Shown piece after piece: positions 20,984 to 27,520 of a DNA stretch of 64,000 nucleotides; positions within the stretch are counted from its first letter, which is position 1; the number at the start of each line of letters is the position of its first letter. The stretch comes from a virus. The notes beneath the pieces were generated by a model. The model was not told the DNA's origin. It saw nothing but the letters and a program-made list of their open reading frames with translations, and ran no database searches. A program made the translations under genes and the position numbers. Location of the stretch: the IMG/VR virus record IMGVR_UViG_3300025759_000077, positions 1 through 64,000 of that record, one strand, 5' to 3'.

Positions 20984-23941
20984 ATGAGTGCCAGAAAATT
21001 TAAGTTTATTTCACCCGGCGTTTTCCTAAACGAGATTGATAATACACAACTACCAAACGAACCAGCAGAGACTGGTCCATTGTTTGTTGGTAGAGCAAAG
21101 TATGGTCCAGCAATGAGACCTGTAACAGTTGACTCATTTGCTGAGTTTGTACAGTTATATGGTGAACCAGTTCCAGGTGGAAAGTCTGATGATGTTTGGA
21201 GAAACGGCAATGAGCAGTCTCCTATGTACGGTACTTACACTGCACAATCCTGGTTAAGAAACTCATCAACCTGCACCTACGTTAGAATGTTGGGTTCTGA
21301 GCATACTGAAGCAACCACAGCAGGAAAGGCAGGTTGGAAAATCACAGGTGTTTCCCCACTTGGACTTGATATTCCCCATGGTGGACAGTTCCCAGAGTTT
21401 ACAGGCGATGCAACTGGTTCTGCTTACGGACTCTTTGTATTCCCAAACCAACTTAGTGGTTCTGAGACAGAAAGCGCTCACGGAACTGGATCATTGGTCG
21501 CAACATGGTATGTAGAGGACGGTCTTGTTGGACTAGTAGGTAAAGACACCTTTGGTTCAAACGTTAATGCTGATACCGCGCCTACTGGTATGTGTACTTT
21601 GATTGCATCAGACGATAGCGGCAAATTCACAGTTGTAATTACAGGTTCAACTGGATACGATAAAGATCGTATCATAAGTTTTTCATTGAATGAGAATAAT
21701 AAAGATTATCTCAGAAATGTTTTTAACACAAACCCAGCATTAGTCAATAAGTCAATTACTAAATCATCTCAACGAGAGAGATACTGGTTGGGCGAGACTT
21801 ATGCTAGAGAGTTTAGTCAAAAATTAACACGAGGTGTAGTTACAGGATCTGGTGGCGCTTCCCAGGGATCACCCAATGCAACTTACTTGGGTGCAATAAT
21901 TCCCCTAGCAACCGGTTCTGATGCAAGACATAGTAACAGGCAAATACCTTTTGAGAGAGGTACAACAAGAAATAACCCAGCAACAGGTATGGTTTTTGGT
22001 CAGGACTTGGGTGGCGCTGCTGCTTCAGGTTCTTACACATATGGTAATATGACTGAGTTGTTTAAGTTCCACGCCCTAGATCATGCTGAGTGGGCACAGA
22101 ACAATCTCAAGGTTTCTATTGCCAATATTAACTATTCGCAAGATCAGTTCAATAAGTTTGGTACATTTGACGTTCTAGTTCGCCGCGCTAGTGATACAGA
22201 CGCAGCACCAGTTGTTTTGGAGAGATTCAGCAATTGTAACTTAGACGCAAACTCTTTAGACTATGTTGCAAGAAAAATTGGCGATCAGTTCTTACAGTTC
22301 GATCCAGTTACAAGAAGATTAAGAACAAGAGGTGAGTACCCTAACAGTTCAAAATACATTAGAATTGAAATGGATGCTGACGATTACGATTCTCAATTGT
22401 TGCCATTCGGATATTACGGTCCTTTAAAGTACAAAGATATTGAAGTGGATAGAGAGACAAACACTCAGCAGAATAACTTTGGTACTGGCATATTTGGACT
22501 AGGTGCCAAAAATATCTTCGATGGTGCTCAAGACCAATTAATTATTACAGGTTCAGGTCTCGGCGCTAGTGGATTCAAGGGACCAGGACTTAAGTTGCTT
22601 TACCCATCTCACGAATTGAGAATTTCTGGTAACCAAGATGGTTTAGCAGACCAAACTGACGCTTACTGGGGTGTTTGGACTGGTATCTCTAAGACAAGTA
22701 ACAAGTTTAACCGCGATTACGCCGACTTGAATAGAAACAGATCAGACATTATCACTGCGCCACTAACTGATACCGCGTACAGTGAGTACCAATACATCTT
22801 TACTCTTGACGAAGTTGTATCTGGATCATCAGATGGTATTCTAAGTTGGGTTTCAGGTTCAAGAGTAGATGGTGATGCCATTTCTGCTCAGTCAGGATTT
22901 ACCTACAAGAATGTACTTGATAAGGGTGTTGATAGATTTACAATGCCCATGTACGGTGGTTCTGATGGTCTTGACATCACAGAGAAAGACCCCTTCAGAA
23001 ACACCTTGTTAGATGGTAAGACAGAAACAACCAACTATGCATACAACACTGTCAAAGAGACAATTGATATTGTTAAAGATCCTGAGTTTGTTCCATACAA
23101 CTTAATCTCAGTTCCCGGCATTACTAATGAGCAGTTAACCACACACCTCATTAACACTGCCGAGGCAAGAGCAGACGCTCTAGCAGTTATCGATCTAAAG
23201 GGTGACTTCCAACCCTCACACGAAGACGATGACGGTAAGGTATACCCTAACTTAAGTGAGACAATTTCTAACTTGAAAGAGCGTCAGATTAACTCAAGTT
23301 ACGGTTGCGCTTACTACCCCTTCGTTCAGATTAGAGATACTCTAGAAGGACAGTTAGTATATGTCCCAGCATCTGTTGCCGCTATCGGCGCAATGTCTTA
23401 CACAGACAGAGTGAGAGCACCATGGTTTGCACCAGCAGGATTCAACCGTGGTGGTCTTTCAAGCGGCATTGTTGGTCTACCAGTTGTTAACGTAACTGAG
23501 AAACTTACATCGCAAGATAGAGACCTTCTATACGACGCCAACATTAACCCAATTGCCTCATTCCCAAATGAGGGCATTGTAATCTTTGGTCAGAAGACTC
23601 TACAGGTTACAAGAAGTGCTTTGGATAGAATTAACGTTCGTAGATTGTTGATCTTTATCAAGAAAGGTATTTCTAACATCGCTGCTGGTATCTTGTTTGA
23701 ACCAAACGTTCGTGCTACATGGGCACGATTCATTGGTCAAGCAGAACCCTTCTTATCAGATGTTCAAGCAAGATTTGGTTTGGATGAGTACAAGTTGGTT
23801 CTTGATGAGACAACAACAACACCGGACTTAGTTGATAGAAACATTCTGTACGCCAAGGTTTACTTGAAACCAACCCGTGCAATTGAGTTTGTTGCTGTTG
23901 ACTTCATTATTACCAACACTGGTGCATCTTTTGAGGATTAA
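20984..23941 (+). CDS. Contractile tail sheath protein (gp18-like)
   Basis: 985 residues, about 50% longer than T4 gp18 (659). The N-terminus (KFKFISPGVFLNEID) and C-terminus (RIGQAEPF-type region, then LVDRNILYAKVYLKPTRAIEFVAVDFIITNTG) are the conserved sheath core that polymerises around the tube and contracts. The extra length lies in the middle (about 120-620) as Gly/Ser/Thr-rich segments, probably surface-exposed insertions. A perfect late motif precedes it and the tube gene follows. Confidence 0.93.
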   Translation: MSARKFKFISPGVFLNEIDNTQLPNEPAETGPLFVGRAKYGPAMRPVTVDSFAEFVQLYGEPVPGGKSDDVWRNGNEQSPMYGTYTAQSWLRNSSTCTYVRMLGSEHTEATTAGKAGWKITGVSPLGLDIPHGGQFPEFTGDATGSAYGLFVFPNQLSGSETESAHGTGSLVATWYVEDGLVGLVGKDTFGSNVNADTAPTGMCTLIASDDSGKFTVVITGSTGYDKDRIISFSLNENNKDYLRNVFNTNPALVNKSITKSSQRERYWLGETYAREFSQKLTRGVVTGSGGASQGSPNATYLGAIIPLATGSDARHSNRQIPFERGTTRNNPATGMVFGQDLGGAAASGSYTYGNMTELFKFHALDHAEWAQNNLKVSIANINYSQDQFNKFGTFDVLVRRASDTDAAPVVLERFSNCNLDANSLDYVARKIGDQFLQFDPVTRRLRTRGEYPNSSKYIRIEMDADDYDSQLLPFGYYGPLKYKDIEVDRETNTQQNNFGTGIFGLGAKNIFDGAQDQLIITGSGLGASGFKGPGLKLLYPSHELRISGNQDGLADQTDAYWGVWTGISKTSNKFNRDYADLNRNRSDIITAPLTDTAYSEYQYIFTLDEVVSGSSDGILSWVSGSRVDGDAISAQSGFTYKNVLDKGVDRFTMPMYGGSDGLDITEKDPFRNTLLDGKTETTNYAYNTVKETIDIVKDPEFVPYNLISVPGITNEQLTTHLINTAEARADALAVIDLKGDFQPSHEDDDGKVYPNLSETISNLKERQINSSYGCAYYPFVQIRDTLEGQLVYVPASVAAIGAMSYTDRVRAPWFAPAGFNRGGLSSGIVGLPVVNVTEKLTSQDRDLLYDANINPIASFPNEGIVIFGQKTLQVTRSALDRINVRRLLIFIKKGISNIAAGILFEPNVRATWARFIGQAEPFLSDVQARFGLDEYKLVLDETTTTPDLVDRNILYAKVYLKPTRAIEFVAVDFIITNTGASFED

Positions 23942-23971: not shown

Positions 23972-24526
23972 ATGCCAAACAAAGCAACACCAATTCCACC
24001 ATGGGCATCAGTTAAGATTGAACCAAAAAGAGAGTTTAAATTTATTCTAACTTTGGGTGAAATCCCAGCATGGGTTGTCACTGATTGTGATAGACCAAAC
24101 CCAAATTTTGATGGACAAGTAAACCATGAGTTTTTAGGACATCAATTTAAGTTTCCTGGTAAATTAAAGTGGTCAGATATTAACATGACACTTGTTGAAC
24201 CAATTGATCCCGATGTATCTGGATTGGTGCTAGGTGCAGTTGAAAAGGCGGGTTATAACCCACCATCAACATGGACTGCCGACAATGAAGGTTGGAGAAC
24301 TACCTTTTCTAAAGAAAGATTTGTAACTGGAAACTTTGGTAATATTTCAGTCAAGGTATTAGATTCTGATGGAAATGAGATTGAGACATGGACTCTATAC
24401 AATTCATTTGTCAATGGTGTTTCCTACTCTAGTCTAAATTACGGTGGTAGCGCAATCAACACAGTAAAATTGACATTTTCCTATGATTATGCTACTTTGA
24501 ATATTACAGAAATTAATCAAAATTAA
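23972..24526 (+). CDS. Tail tube protein (gp19-like)
   Basis: 184 residues, close to T4 gp19 (163). It directly follows the sheath gene. The pattern EFKFILTLGEIPAWVVTDCDRPNP, then FKFPGKLKWSDINMTLVEP and the C-terminal TWTLYNSFVNGVSYSSLNYGG...FSYDYA is the tube fold shared by gp19 and Hcp. AGGAGA upstream gives a good ribosome binding site. Confidence 0.88.
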   Translation: MPNKATPIPPWASVKIEPKREFKFILTLGEIPAWVVTDCDRPNPNFDGQVNHEFLGHQFKFPGKLKWSDINMTLVEPIDPDVSGLVLGAVEKAGYNPPSTWTADNEGWRTTFSKERFVTGNFGNISVKVLDSDGNEIETWTLYNSFVNGVSYSSLNYGGSAINTVKLTFSYDYATLNITEINQN

Positions 24527-24532
24527 TAGTGT

Positions 24533-24547
24533 GACATAATTATTGTA
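24533..24547 (+). promoter_or_regulatory. Variant late motif abutting a start codon
   Basis: GACATAATTATTGTA ends three bases before the ATG at 24550; 14 of 15 bases recur before the gene at 27568. Its TAATTATTGTA core is close to the TATTTATTGTA of the standard late motif. No Shine-Dalgarno sequence is visible between it and the start. Confidence 0.4.
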
Positions 24548-24549
24548 AG

Positions 24550-25107
24550 ATGTCAGACATAAATTATACACAAACTGTAAGATCTAGTTTACAATCTAAT
24601 TTTAGATTTCTTTTGCGTATTGATAATATTCCCTTTGCTATGGTCTCTTCTGTTAGTAGACCAAAACCAAACATATCATCACCGAAAGAGTTCACACTAT
24701 TAAACTGGAAATTTAAACAACCAGGGACTATTGTAACTTGGGACAATGTTACATTTAAAGTTGTTGAGAGTTTTGACAACGAAAAATTTGATTCAATATC
24801 TGGAATCCTTTTAAAAACATATAAAGAAAGAGGGTATGATAATCCAAACCAGATTGATGCTAGTAATTTAAAAGATATGAATAAAAAGTCATTAATAGAT
24901 TCAATCGGAACTGTTAAAATAGAAGTGATAAATCCAGATGGAGAAGTTTACGAAACTTGGAAATTATATAATGCTTTTGTTAGCGGAATTGATTTTGATG
25001 GACTCAATTATTCAGGAGCATCTATTTTGGGAGCATCGGTAACTTTAAGTTATGACTGGGCAGATTTAACATATAGAACATCCACTGGTAGAGAAATTAC
25101 ATACTAA
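24550..25107 (+). CDS. Second tail tube-type protein (gp19 paralogue)
   Basis: 185 residues with the same layout as the preceding tube protein: NFRFLLRIDNIPFAMVSSVSRPKPN, a WKFKQPGTIVTWDNVTF segment and the end TWKLYNAFVSGIDFDGLNYSGAS...LSYDWADL. The two proteins are clearly paralogous but divergent. The second copy may form the tube tip, cap or a minor ring rather than the main tube. The start at 24550 lacks a Shine-Dalgarno sequence. Confidence 0.82.
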   Translation: MSDINYTQTVRSSLQSNFRFLLRIDNIPFAMVSSVSRPKPNISSPKEFTLLNWKFKQPGTIVTWDNVTFKVVESFDNEKFDSISGILLKTYKERGYDNPNQIDASNLKDMNKKSLIDSIGTVKIEVINPDGEVYETWKLYNAFVSGIDFDGLNYSGASILGASVTLSYDWADLTYRTSTGREITY

Positions 25108-25118
25108 AAGAGGTAAAA

Positions 25119-25910
25119 ATGCAAAAATTTGAACTTGAAGAGCAGTCTTCATTGTTGGAACACAATGGAGCAACTTTTTTTATTGATTTGCCAACAAAAG
25201 GTAAATTTTATTCAGAAGATCATCCTTTTCATAATAAAGAACAAATTGAACTTAAGATGATGACTACAAGGGAAGAGGAGATTCTAACAAACCCTTCTTA
25301 TATCGAAAATAATTTAACAATTGACAAACTCCTTCAGAGTGTGTTAAACATGCCTACAATAACGACTGCGGATCTTTTTGAGGTTGATCAGTATGCAATA
25401 CTGATTGGACTTAGAATCGACGCTTATGACGAAAACTACAAGGTTGTAGCAGCATGTTCTAACTGTGAGGAAGAGTATCCTTTCTCTATTGATCTCGATG
25501 AGATGCGTGAAAAGGTTAATTACAGTGATCTGGAAGAAACACCGAACAATACTTTTGTTGTAAAGTTGCCAAAGAGTAATAGAACGGTAGAATTTAAATT
25601 AGTTTTGCCTAAAGAAATATTATCTGTGCAAAAAACAACAGAAAAACTTTCAAAGATGAACGTTAAAACAAACTTCACTCAAGAATTTTTAAAGAGAATC
25701 GTTGTGTCAGTTGATGGTGATACTGATTCAGCAGAAAAAGATAAATTTTTAAGGTTTTTGCGAATCATGGACTCTAGATTTTTGATGTCTGCATATGAAA
25801 AAGGTATCCCTGAACTTGATTTATCGGTTACAAGCACCTGCCCACACTGTAATCATCAGCAGGAAGGGGGTATGCCTATCCAGGCGAACTTTTTTTTCCC
25901 TGAATTCTAG
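25119..25910 (+). CDS. Baseplate hub assembly protein, gp26-like
   Basis: 263 residues. FFIDLPTKGKFY near the start, then KMMTTREEEILTNPSY, matches the gp26-type baseplate hub family (LPSkGkfY...mTa.EE). A four-cysteine zinc site is made by CSNC (about 113) and CPHC (about 243). The last codons run through an 8-T tract, and a second frame open across that tract continues to 26061, suggesting a frameshifted longer product. It lies between tube and tape-measure genes, where tail assembly chaperones are found. Confidence 0.7.
   Translation: MQKFELEEQSSLLEHNGATFFIDLPTKGKFYSEDHPFHNKEQIELKMMTTREEEILTNPSYIENNLTIDKLLQSVLNMPTITTADLFEVDQYAILIGLRIDAYDENYKVVAACSNCEEEYPFSIDLDEMREKVNYSDLEETPNNTFVVKLPKSNRTVEFKLVLPKEILSVQKTTEKLSKMNVKTNFTQEFLKRIVVSVDGDTDSAEKDKFLRFLRIMDSRFLMSAYEKGIPELDLSVTSTCPHCNHQQEGGMPIQANFFFPEF
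25890..25897 (+). other. T8 slippery tract, probable programmed frameshift or slippage site
   Basis: Eight T residues in ...GCG AAC TTT TTT TTC CCT GAA TTC TAG at the end of the gp26-like gene. Moving to the +1 frame (skip one base, or -2) here avoids the TAG at 25908 and continues for 54 codons. Both translational slippage and RNA polymerase slippage are possible on such a run. Confidence 0.5.
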
Positions 25911-26061
25911 TTATATAGAAGATATATACAGCAATGTAACTGCTGCAATAACTCATACCGGATGGAGATACAAGGATCTGTTTAATTTACCGATTAAAAA
26001 AAGAAACTGGATTTTTCATTTGATTGTAAAAGTGAACCAACCGAGCGAGGAAGATGAGTAA
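25891..26061 (+). CDS. +1-frame extension of gp26-like protein (gp51/chaperone-type)
   Basis: This frame encodes SSYIEDIYSNVTAAITHTGW followed by RYKDLFNLPIKKRNWIFHLI and an acidic tail ending at 26061. The helical W-x-Y-xx-L-xx-LP-xx-R-xx-W pattern resembles the small domains that end T4-type hub chaperones. The frame stays open back to 25795 but has no start codon with a ribosome binding site, and its end overlaps the tape-measure start by 8 bases. The simplest reading is expression as a C-terminal extension via the T8 tract. Confidence 0.5.
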   Translation, partial: FFSLNSSYIEDIYSNVTAAITHTGWRYKDLFNLPIKKRNWIFHLIVKVNQPSEEDE

Positions 26062-27520
26062 AGATTTTATAACGCGATTTATTAATCCTGATGGTACATT
26101 TAGAACGGATGACTTTCTTAAAGCGTCCAGTAAATTAGGTGGTGATATAACGGAAGCGGTAACAAAGGCTACTGTGCTGCAAGCCGCCGCTGGTGTTTTT
26201 GAAGGTTCTCTTGCAGGGCAAAAACTATTATTTTTAGAACTAGTAGGTCAAATAGAAAAATTTCAAGTAGATGCGTTAAAGACTCTTGGTATAACTGACT
26301 TTAATAAAGAACTTGGACAATCAGTAGCATTGTTTCAAGATTTAAACAGTAATGTGAATAGGTTTGGTATTACTCAGGAAACGCTTAAAGATACTATTAT
26401 TGAGACTACAAAAGCGTTTGATCAATCAGGAGAAGTTGGTAGCAAAGGAATAGAAAAACTTTCAAGAGCAATTGCAGCAAACTCTAACATAGTAGATAGA
26501 TCTACATTAGTTGAATTTTCTAAAGGATTGGTTTTTCAATCAGGTCGTTCAGCAGAACAAGTTGCTGGATTATCAGATAATTTAATAAAACTTGCTGTAG
26601 ATCTTCGAAGACCGCCTAGTGAAATTATTAAAATGACAACGGCGTTGGCATCAAATAATGCTACTTTTGCTACAACTAGTAAAGAAATGGATAAGATCAT
26701 AATAAGATCTACTAAAATGGCGCGCGCGCTAGGTATTGGGTCTGATGCTCTTAGAGGTTATGGCGCTAGAACGTTTACAATTCAATCAAGAATACGTGAA
26801 CTTGGACAACTTGGTAGACTTGCAAGAAGATTGGGATTTGATATTAATGCGAGACTTATAGGTTCGACAAAAGCAGCAGATAGAATACAGGGAGCGATTC
26901 AATTTCTATACAAATTAAATAGAGCAATGCAAACTGCGACAGAAGATCAAAAACAAGCAACTGCCGCGTACTTGGAGACAACGCAACTTGGTGCTATCGG
27001 TGGACAGGGAATCAGGGCGGCAATTATGGCAAGAAGACTTCTCAGTCCTGCTGAAATAGAGAAACTGGTCAAAGAACGTGCTGGTCGCGGTGCAAGACCA
27101 GGAGAAATAGATCGGTTAAGAAGAGGGGCAGTAACTACAGCAGATCGATTAAGAGTTCAAGCGGATCAAATACGACTTGCAGCAGCAACGAAAGCGATCT
27201 CTGAGTTGACAGGAATTACGGGAACTACACAGGAGATTGTACAAACTCTCGGAAGAGACTTGCAGGTATACATACCACAGTTTGAAAAAGCAGCAAGAGC
27301 AATTAGTGAAGGAACAGGAAAATTTGCGGGAGTGATGGTTGAATTTGTTGGTTTGGTAGTTAGACTTGTAGCAAACAGGGGACAACTAGATAGCGCAGAA
27401 GCACAGCGTTTAATAAATAGATTGACACAAATACTCCCACAAGTACAGACAAAAATGGGTATGGGTGCTGGAGGTCGCACCGCAGCGCCAGCAGCGGCAC
27501 CTGCACCCCGGACTCCTTAA
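26054..27520 (+). CDS. Tape measure / baseplate hub protein (gp29-like)
   Basis: 488 residues, almost all helical with Ala/Leu/Arg-rich repeats and a central hydrophobic Ala/Gly region, as seen in tape measure proteins that set tail length; T4 gp29 has 590. It follows the frameshifted chaperone gene, the common arrangement in tailed phages. The C-terminus is a low-complexity Ala/Pro tail (APAAAPAPRTP). The start overlaps the chaperone frame by 8 bases. Confidence 0.65.
   Translation: MSKDFITRFINPDGTFRTDDFLKASSKLGGDITEAVTKATVLQAAAGVFEGSLAGQKLLFLELVGQIEKFQVDALKTLGITDFNKELGQSVALFQDLNSNVNRFGITQETLKDTIIETTKAFDQSGEVGSKGIEKLSRAIAANSNIVDRSTLVEFSKGLVFQSGRSAEQVAGLSDNLIKLAVDLRRPPSEIIKMTTALASNNATFATTSKEMDKIIIRSTKMARALGIGSDALRGYGARTFTIQSRIRELGQLGRLARRLGFDINARLIGSTKAADRIQGAIQFLYKLNRAMQTATEDQKQATAAYLETTQLGAIGGQGIRAAIMARRLLSPAEIEKLVKERAGRGARPGEIDRLRRGAVTTADRLRVQADQIRLAAATKAISELTGITGTTQEIVQTLGRDLQVYIPQFEKAARAISEGTGKFAGVMVEFVGLVVRLVANRGQLDSAEAQRLINRLTQILPQVQTKMGMGAGGRTAAPAAAPAPRTP

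Follow-up and report, generated by a model that had tools for sequence, protein, structure and literature searches.

In lambda, one gene located before the tape measure gene yields a short protein, gpG, and a low-level frameshifted long form, gpGT, whose C domain has no start codon (Atkins 2016, PMC5009743). This G-T frameshift is conserved, and T4 has been singled out as the exception (PMC5009743). According to two citing papers (PMC10885494, PMC12846349), Vladimirov, Gautam and Davidson (2022, Virology 566:9) reported T4-like phages that carry separate short and long tail assembly chaperone (TAC) genes, and the Adele paper credits the same work with polyT -1 signals in some T4-like TAC genes; frameshifting in some T4-like phages is therefore already known. 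The accounts of that work in the citing papers do not mention a +1 mode. Forward shifts have been described elsewhere: the tail assembly gene of the haloarchaeal myovirus HSTV-2 very likely uses +1 frameshifting, and the Listeria phages PSA, A118 and A500 use it in structural genes (PMC5009743). A further point of comparison is RF2 (prfB), in which a YUU codon slips +1 onto UUU with the help of a Shine-Dalgarno (SD)-like stimulator.

The gene described here lies in a window of 64,000 nt, the whole stretch of DNA that was analyzed (positions 1 to 64,000 of the IMG/VR virus record IMGVR_UViG_3300025759_000077), and is the single gene of its type in the 69.7-kb record. It resembles lambda G/GT in its place before a tape measure gene and in its short form followed by a start-less C domain; unlike lambda, where the shift is -1, it has its second domain in the +1 frame behind an upstream SD-like element and hairpin, and its N domain belongs to the T4 gp26 family (PF12322). 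By the description available, HSTV-2 is similar in using +1 frameshifting in a myovirus tail assembly gene. The Listeria genes share the +1 direction in phage structural genes but differ in that the codon that shifts is CCC, for proline, and the genes concerned encode capsid and tail-shaft proteins rather than a TAC.

Gene order in the window runs from the sheath gene through two gp19-type tube genes and the TAC gene to a tape-measure-like gene with a weak TMP match (Table 1). The same order was present in the annotated relatives SP-15, immuto and LIS04, in which a tail or tape measure protein is annotated at the TMP position. Judged by its sequence neighborhood, the gene stands in the classical TAC place of the lambda G/GT type, between a major tail tube gene and a tape measure gene, the latter being a weak assignment in the window. 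The two tube genes lie side by side (23972-25107), with a PHROG 4542 match in both. The tape-measure-like gene, at 488 aa, is short. From its ATG on, it shares 8 bases with the end of the extension, an overlap that suggests translational coupling.

Table 1. Coordinates of the tail genes and putative recoding elements in the window
Feature	Position	Strand	Evidence
Tail sheath gene (context)	20984..23941	+	PHROG 23 tail sheath, E=8.9e-68
Tail tube gene 1, T4 gp19 type (context)	23972..24526	+	PF06841, E=9e-7; PHROG 4542
Tail tube gene 2, T4 gp19 type (context)	24550..25107	+	PF06841, E=4e-6; PHROG 4542
TAC short form (N), gp26-like, 263 aa, zero frame	25119..25910	+	PF12322, E=3.7e-15; PHROG 150, E=9.9e-15; AF2 model, pLDDT 93
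Shine-Dalgarno-like element AAGGGGGT, 22-29 nt before the slip codon	25864..25871	+	Duplex of -11.3 kcal/mol with the anti-SD; enriched across relatives
Predicted upstream hairpin, TGCCT-atcc-AGGCG	25873..25886	+	Enriched across relatives
Slippery T8 run; likely P-site codon TTT 25893-25895, re-pairing on 25894-25896	25890..25897	+	
+1-frame extension (C domain), 54 residues from TCC 25897, stop TAA 26059-26061, DUF6760-like	25897..26061	+	Open +1 frame; purifying selection; weak PF20546 match
Tape-measure-like gene, start overlapping the end of the extension	26054..27520	+	PF20155 TMP_3, E=9.7e-4 (below family cut-off); position before baseplate genes

A preliminary description of this locus had noted a gp26-like frame ending shortly after the T8 run, and the zero frame does stop at TAG 25908-25910, with 10 bases between the run and the stop codon. 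The +1 frame continues to 26061, as described there, and reaches 50 codons beyond the zero-frame stop; it is open already from 25786 rather than from 25795, which is the position of an ATG. Since this ATG lies deep in the overlap and is missing from most close relatives, it is not a credible start, and the description of the second domain as start-less holds to that extent, though not literally. The term gp26-like agrees with the match of the short form to Pfam T4_baseplate (PF12322, the gp26/gp51 family; 56.6 bits, curated cut-off 24.5). The short form is assigned to PHROG 150, a baseplate hub group, but the protein called a hub chaperone is more aptly described as a TAC than as part of the hub, and the supposed T4-type baseplate cassette reads as sheath, tube, tube, TAC and tape measure rather than as baseplate proper.

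We built an AF2 model of the short form using an alignment free of rows from annotated records. The model matched viral gp26-family models, among them those of the SP-15 hub (E=4.9e-16) and of Aeromonas phage 25 gp26 (E=9.9e-7). A search of the PDB for a helical TAC fold such as that of HK97 gp13 returned no solved-structure match at E<=0.001. In profile alignments, T4 gp26 (208 aa) covered the short form and ended at its FF, and T4 gp51 (249 aa) spanned the whole fusion, its last part weakly; the gp51 profile match as such was weak (hhalign probability 4%). T4 thus has counterparts of both forms, gp26 matching the short one and gp51 the whole fusion, but encodes them in two separate genes without a frameshift, in contrast to the one gene with a +1 shift proposed for the window phage. 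Because gp26 matches the short form and gp51 the long form, the two genes of T4 seem, from these alignments, to have replaced a frameshift.

To compare the two frames across relatives, we gathered loci through the hub protein and also through the T8 motif, on which 17 loci were selected. The first set contained 118 unique testable loci, near-duplicates included, with two further loci that stop before the extension; the second contained 131 dereplicated out-of-sample loci, each with <85% identity both to the others and to every locus of the first set. The extension was out of frame in every one of the 249 testable loci: 239 had it in the +1 frame, 10 in the -1 frame and none in frame. Broken down by set, the counts were 108 in +1, 10 in -1 and 0 in frame for the first, and 131/131 in +1 for the second. 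No ATG, GTG or TTG from which the extension alone could start was present in 54/118 loci of the first set and 37/131 of the second (~37% overall). This agrees with the G/GT type, in which a start-less second frame is joined by a conserved frameshift. The extension was under purifying selection, with a median dN/dS of 0.27 and codon-position divergence of 0.37/0.24/0.52, and the other two frames over it held 48 and 49 stops across 13 sequences. One assignment, that of Rhodothermus phage RM378 (L142), was made from its open frame and its TTTTTTTGG site, with no profile match. In this phage (2998-3877), the site and the open +1 frame are annotated as two hypothetical genes, and the profile misses the domain.

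The run itself is not rare by chance in an AT-rich window, where we found 3 T8 runs compared to 29 expected in shuffles; its conservation exceeds chance. In the T8 clade, several loci of which were fetched by motif, third-codon-position identity climbs from about 0.36 to 0.97 at the site. An identical T8 is present in three contigs of the same virus from different metagenomes (L008-L010), and T8 also occurs in L011 and L012, both of which were found through the protein and have 45-48% protein identity. A sequencing error in the T run is excluded because the run recurs in these contigs and in the protein-found relatives.

Slip sites were strongly constrained. The commonest in the first set were TTT TTT TGG (69), TTT TTT TTC (16, many of them motif-selected) and TTC TTT TGG (7), and rarer forms included TTT TTT TTT, TTT TTT TAC or TAT, TTT CTT TGG and TTT TTT CGG, among others. 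The second set contained TTT TTT TGG in 120 loci, TTT CTT TGG in seven and TTC TTT TGG in four, and the slip codon was TTT or CTT followed by T in all 131. With few exceptions, then, +1 sites share YUU followed by Y, and a P-site tRNA can therefore re-pair one base forward, on UUU or UUC, as in RF2; L005 (TTT AGT) is a weaker fit. Some members are exactly CUU U, the RF2 configuration. Among the +1 members, the second Phe codon before the shift was TTT in 71/71 scored representatives, compared to 79% TTT in the remainder of these genes (p=4e-7). In the window, the presumed slip would bring UUC into the A site, a codon that is not evidently slow.

A canonical -1 heptamer (X XXY YYZ) with a -1 extension is absent from the window. 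Such heptamers were found in nine of the ten -1 members, as A AAT TTY in seven and T TTT TTC in two, with no clear heptamer in L007. The -1 members are scattered over the tree, and well-supported branches force at least three changes of direction. The seven with A AAT TTY (L044, L046, L058, L060, L068, L084 and L086) are sister phages that represent a natural direction switch in one gene family. The two with T TTT TTC are gp26 homologues of the jumbo phages RaK2 (L143) and 121Q (L144); in 121Q, part of the extension is annotated as a hypothetical gene of its own.

The +1 members carry an SD-like element 17-32 nt ahead of the slip codon and then a small hairpin. We scored both against a null in which synonymous codons were resampled from each gene, with the SD-like signal lying around 22-36 nt upstream and folding measured in the 21 nt before the slip site. 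In 44 representatives with <60% identity, the SD score was -10.09 compared to -6.49 in the null (sd 0.31), about 12 sd below, and the hairpin score was -4.28 compared to -1.95 (sd 0.23), about 10 sd below, with control windows flat; these figures come from interdependent relatives and from a synonymous control that carries no phylogeny model. The 131 new loci gave -22.6 sd for the SD and -26.1 sd for the hairpin, with -2.2 and -0.4 in control windows. We found no strong SD-like element in any of the eight -1 members that were scored. When the hairpin was examined for covariation in a single fixed register, the signal was weak (best z 4.4, away from the expected pairs), and because the stems sit in several registers, the case for the hairpin is made by folding energy against synonymous resampling and not by fixed-column covariation. 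Downstream of the site, the mean z for RNA structure was only -0.3 to -0.5, with no strong 3' stimulator.

The RF2 SD lies 3 nt from the slip site. In the 42 loci with both elements, the median distance between the end of the SD and the P site was 22.5 nt, reduced to 8 nt with the hairpin looped out, with a wide spread. Thus the family shares with RF2 the forward slip of YUU and an SD-like stimulator, but in RF2 the SD is close and a stop codon occupies the A site, whereas here a hairpin intervenes and a sense codon, mostly UGG, comes next. The SD-like element, at a distance far exceeding that in RF2, may act jointly with the hairpin as a forward-drive signal. It has been suggested that mRNA structure 5' of a recoding site perhaps stimulates +1 frameshifting (Atkins 2016, PMC5009743). 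The PRFect work notes that a ribosome can slip backward where 5' structure is absent and ranks UUU as one of the most slippery codons in +1 shifts of the prfB type. The family offers a large natural set in which an SD-like element and a 5' hairpin are conserved ahead of a +1 site, and so bears on 5' stimulation of +1 shifts.

Three other explanations for the out-of-frame extension were weighed. RNA polymerase slipping on the T8 run could produce T7 or T10 mRNAs that read directly into the extension, and the homopolymer, which reaches T9 in L100-L102, is suited to this. The +1 extension is nevertheless kept where only a T4 run precedes GG (TTC TTT TGG; seven loci in the first set and four in the second) and also with TTT CTT TGG, TTT TTT CGG and TTT CTA TTC. 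Moreover, most -1 members have ribosomal heptamers, and an SD-like element with a 5' hairpin is sensible for ribosomes only; we therefore consider transcriptional slippage improbable as the source of the extension. A -2 ribosomal slip on T8, which would add one extra Phe (ANFFF-SLNSS), is a mechanism that some tail genes, such as those of Mu, use, and P-site and A-site tRNAs on T8 could indeed re-pair two bases back. At TTC TTT TGG, however, tRNA-Phe moved back by two would meet UCU, a mismatch, while a +1 move pairs perfectly, and CTT TGG behaves likewise, which makes a -2 slip a poor candidate. The members with a T4 run and those with CTT TGG agree with forward slipping of the P-site tRNA by one base and, on the evidence of their sequences, argue against both a -2 slip and polymerase slippage; as mechanisms for the family as a whole, we rejected these two on the short-run and CTT variants. 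Within the T8 clade, either could contribute at the run.

An independent start for the C domain might seem to be offered by the ATG at 25795 in the +1 frame, together with the strong SD-like element upstream of the T run. That ATG is not conserved, 45 of the 67 loci with a strong SD-like element lack any ATG, GTG or TTG that is in the extension frame and no more than 30 nt from the slip codon, and the 54/118 loci mentioned above have no start codon of any kind. With so many loci lacking a usable start, and with an SD that no start follows, we rejected separate initiation and regard it as highly improbable.

A single TAC gene in the window phage very probably gives two proteins through a +1 slip on the T run, with the upstream SD-like element and hairpin as probable stimulators. 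The reading frames and their conservation, the switches of direction, the slip-codon constraint and the enrichment of the upstream elements are properties of the aligned genomes, and from them we infer the slip, its direction in this phage, its rate, the working of the stimulators and the chaperone role of the products. The majority of ribosomes would read 25119-25910 through to make the short form. In a fraction of them, peptidyl-tRNA-Phe would slip from UUU 25893-25895 to UUU 25894-25896, and these ribosomes would read the +1 frame to 26061, giving a 313-residue long form ending ...ANFF-SLNSSYIEDIYS.... By analogy with lambda gpG/gpGT, the short form would be expected to form a coat on the tape measure protein, and tail tube subunits would be recruited by the C domain of the long form. 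The SD-like element and the intervening hairpin probably stimulate the forward slip, the hairpin by shortening the path from SD to P site and, as 5' structure, by hindering backward movement. With confidence a little better than even, we propose that the family defines a distinct class of +1 signal, in which an SD-like element is brought to a working P-site distance by a short hairpin ahead of YUU U, the hairpin behind the ribosome blocks backward movement, and hundreds of uncultured phages thereby set the ratio of two tail chaperones.

These comparisons bear out the frameshift fusion of a gp26-like protein to a second domain that the preliminary description proposed, the extension being out of frame in 249/249 loci, and they support its parallel with the frameshifted TACs encoded before tape measure genes. 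Its proposal to compare related genomes gave a run conserved in the T8 clade and an extension that is always out of frame. Of the outcomes that it named as contrary, a separate gene with a credible start for the domain was not found among the phage relatives, none of which has the domain in frame either, and an error in the T run was excluded by the three contigs and the relatives. The direction, left there as +1 or -2, is better supported as +1 by the TTC TTT TGG and CTT TGG sites. As judged from the sequences, the finding is right and stronger than first stated: a +1 programmed frameshift in a T4-type TAC gene.

Frameshifted TACs, T4-like TACs and +1 TACs are each known or proposed already, and our literature search found no description of a +1 TAC combined with an SD and hairpin signal. 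What is new is accordingly the +1 mode with its 5' signal, TAC frameshifting being known, partly for T4-like phages too. Relatives of gp26/gp51 with the frameshift in place bear on the standing of T4 as an exception (PMC5009743), and in their light the two genes of T4 look like a replacement. The results also correct annotation, since SP-15, immuto, Mel-JY01 and RM378 have the C domain either labelled as a hypothetical gene or missed.

The C domain matched DUF6760 (PF20546) at 16.4 bits (E=0.0094), under the curated cut-off of 27. At E<=0.1, 15 of the 56 family members of the C domain matched DUF6760 (best 2.6e-4), and by these profile scores the C domain is likely a distant DUF6760 relative. 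We also examined DUF6760 in cellular contractile injection systems, using as the first probe a consensus-like peptide and as the seed of the first profile the loci found with it; the later evidence came from real loci. Our literature search found no paper describing a -1 DUF6760 frameshift in these systems. The profile search covered 85 loci of such systems from bacteria and archaea (L146-L230), 80 of them from genome contigs and 5 from plasmids. At 84/85, a short gene annotated as a phage tail assembly protein has DUF6760 in its -1 frame. Of these 84, 81 show a G5A, G6A or G7 run, in a single register, directly ahead of the stop codon, and 44 have no start codon for the domain. Their sequences suggest that L146-L230 probably encode a -1 frameshifted tail chaperone whose second part has been annotated as a separate gene or missed.
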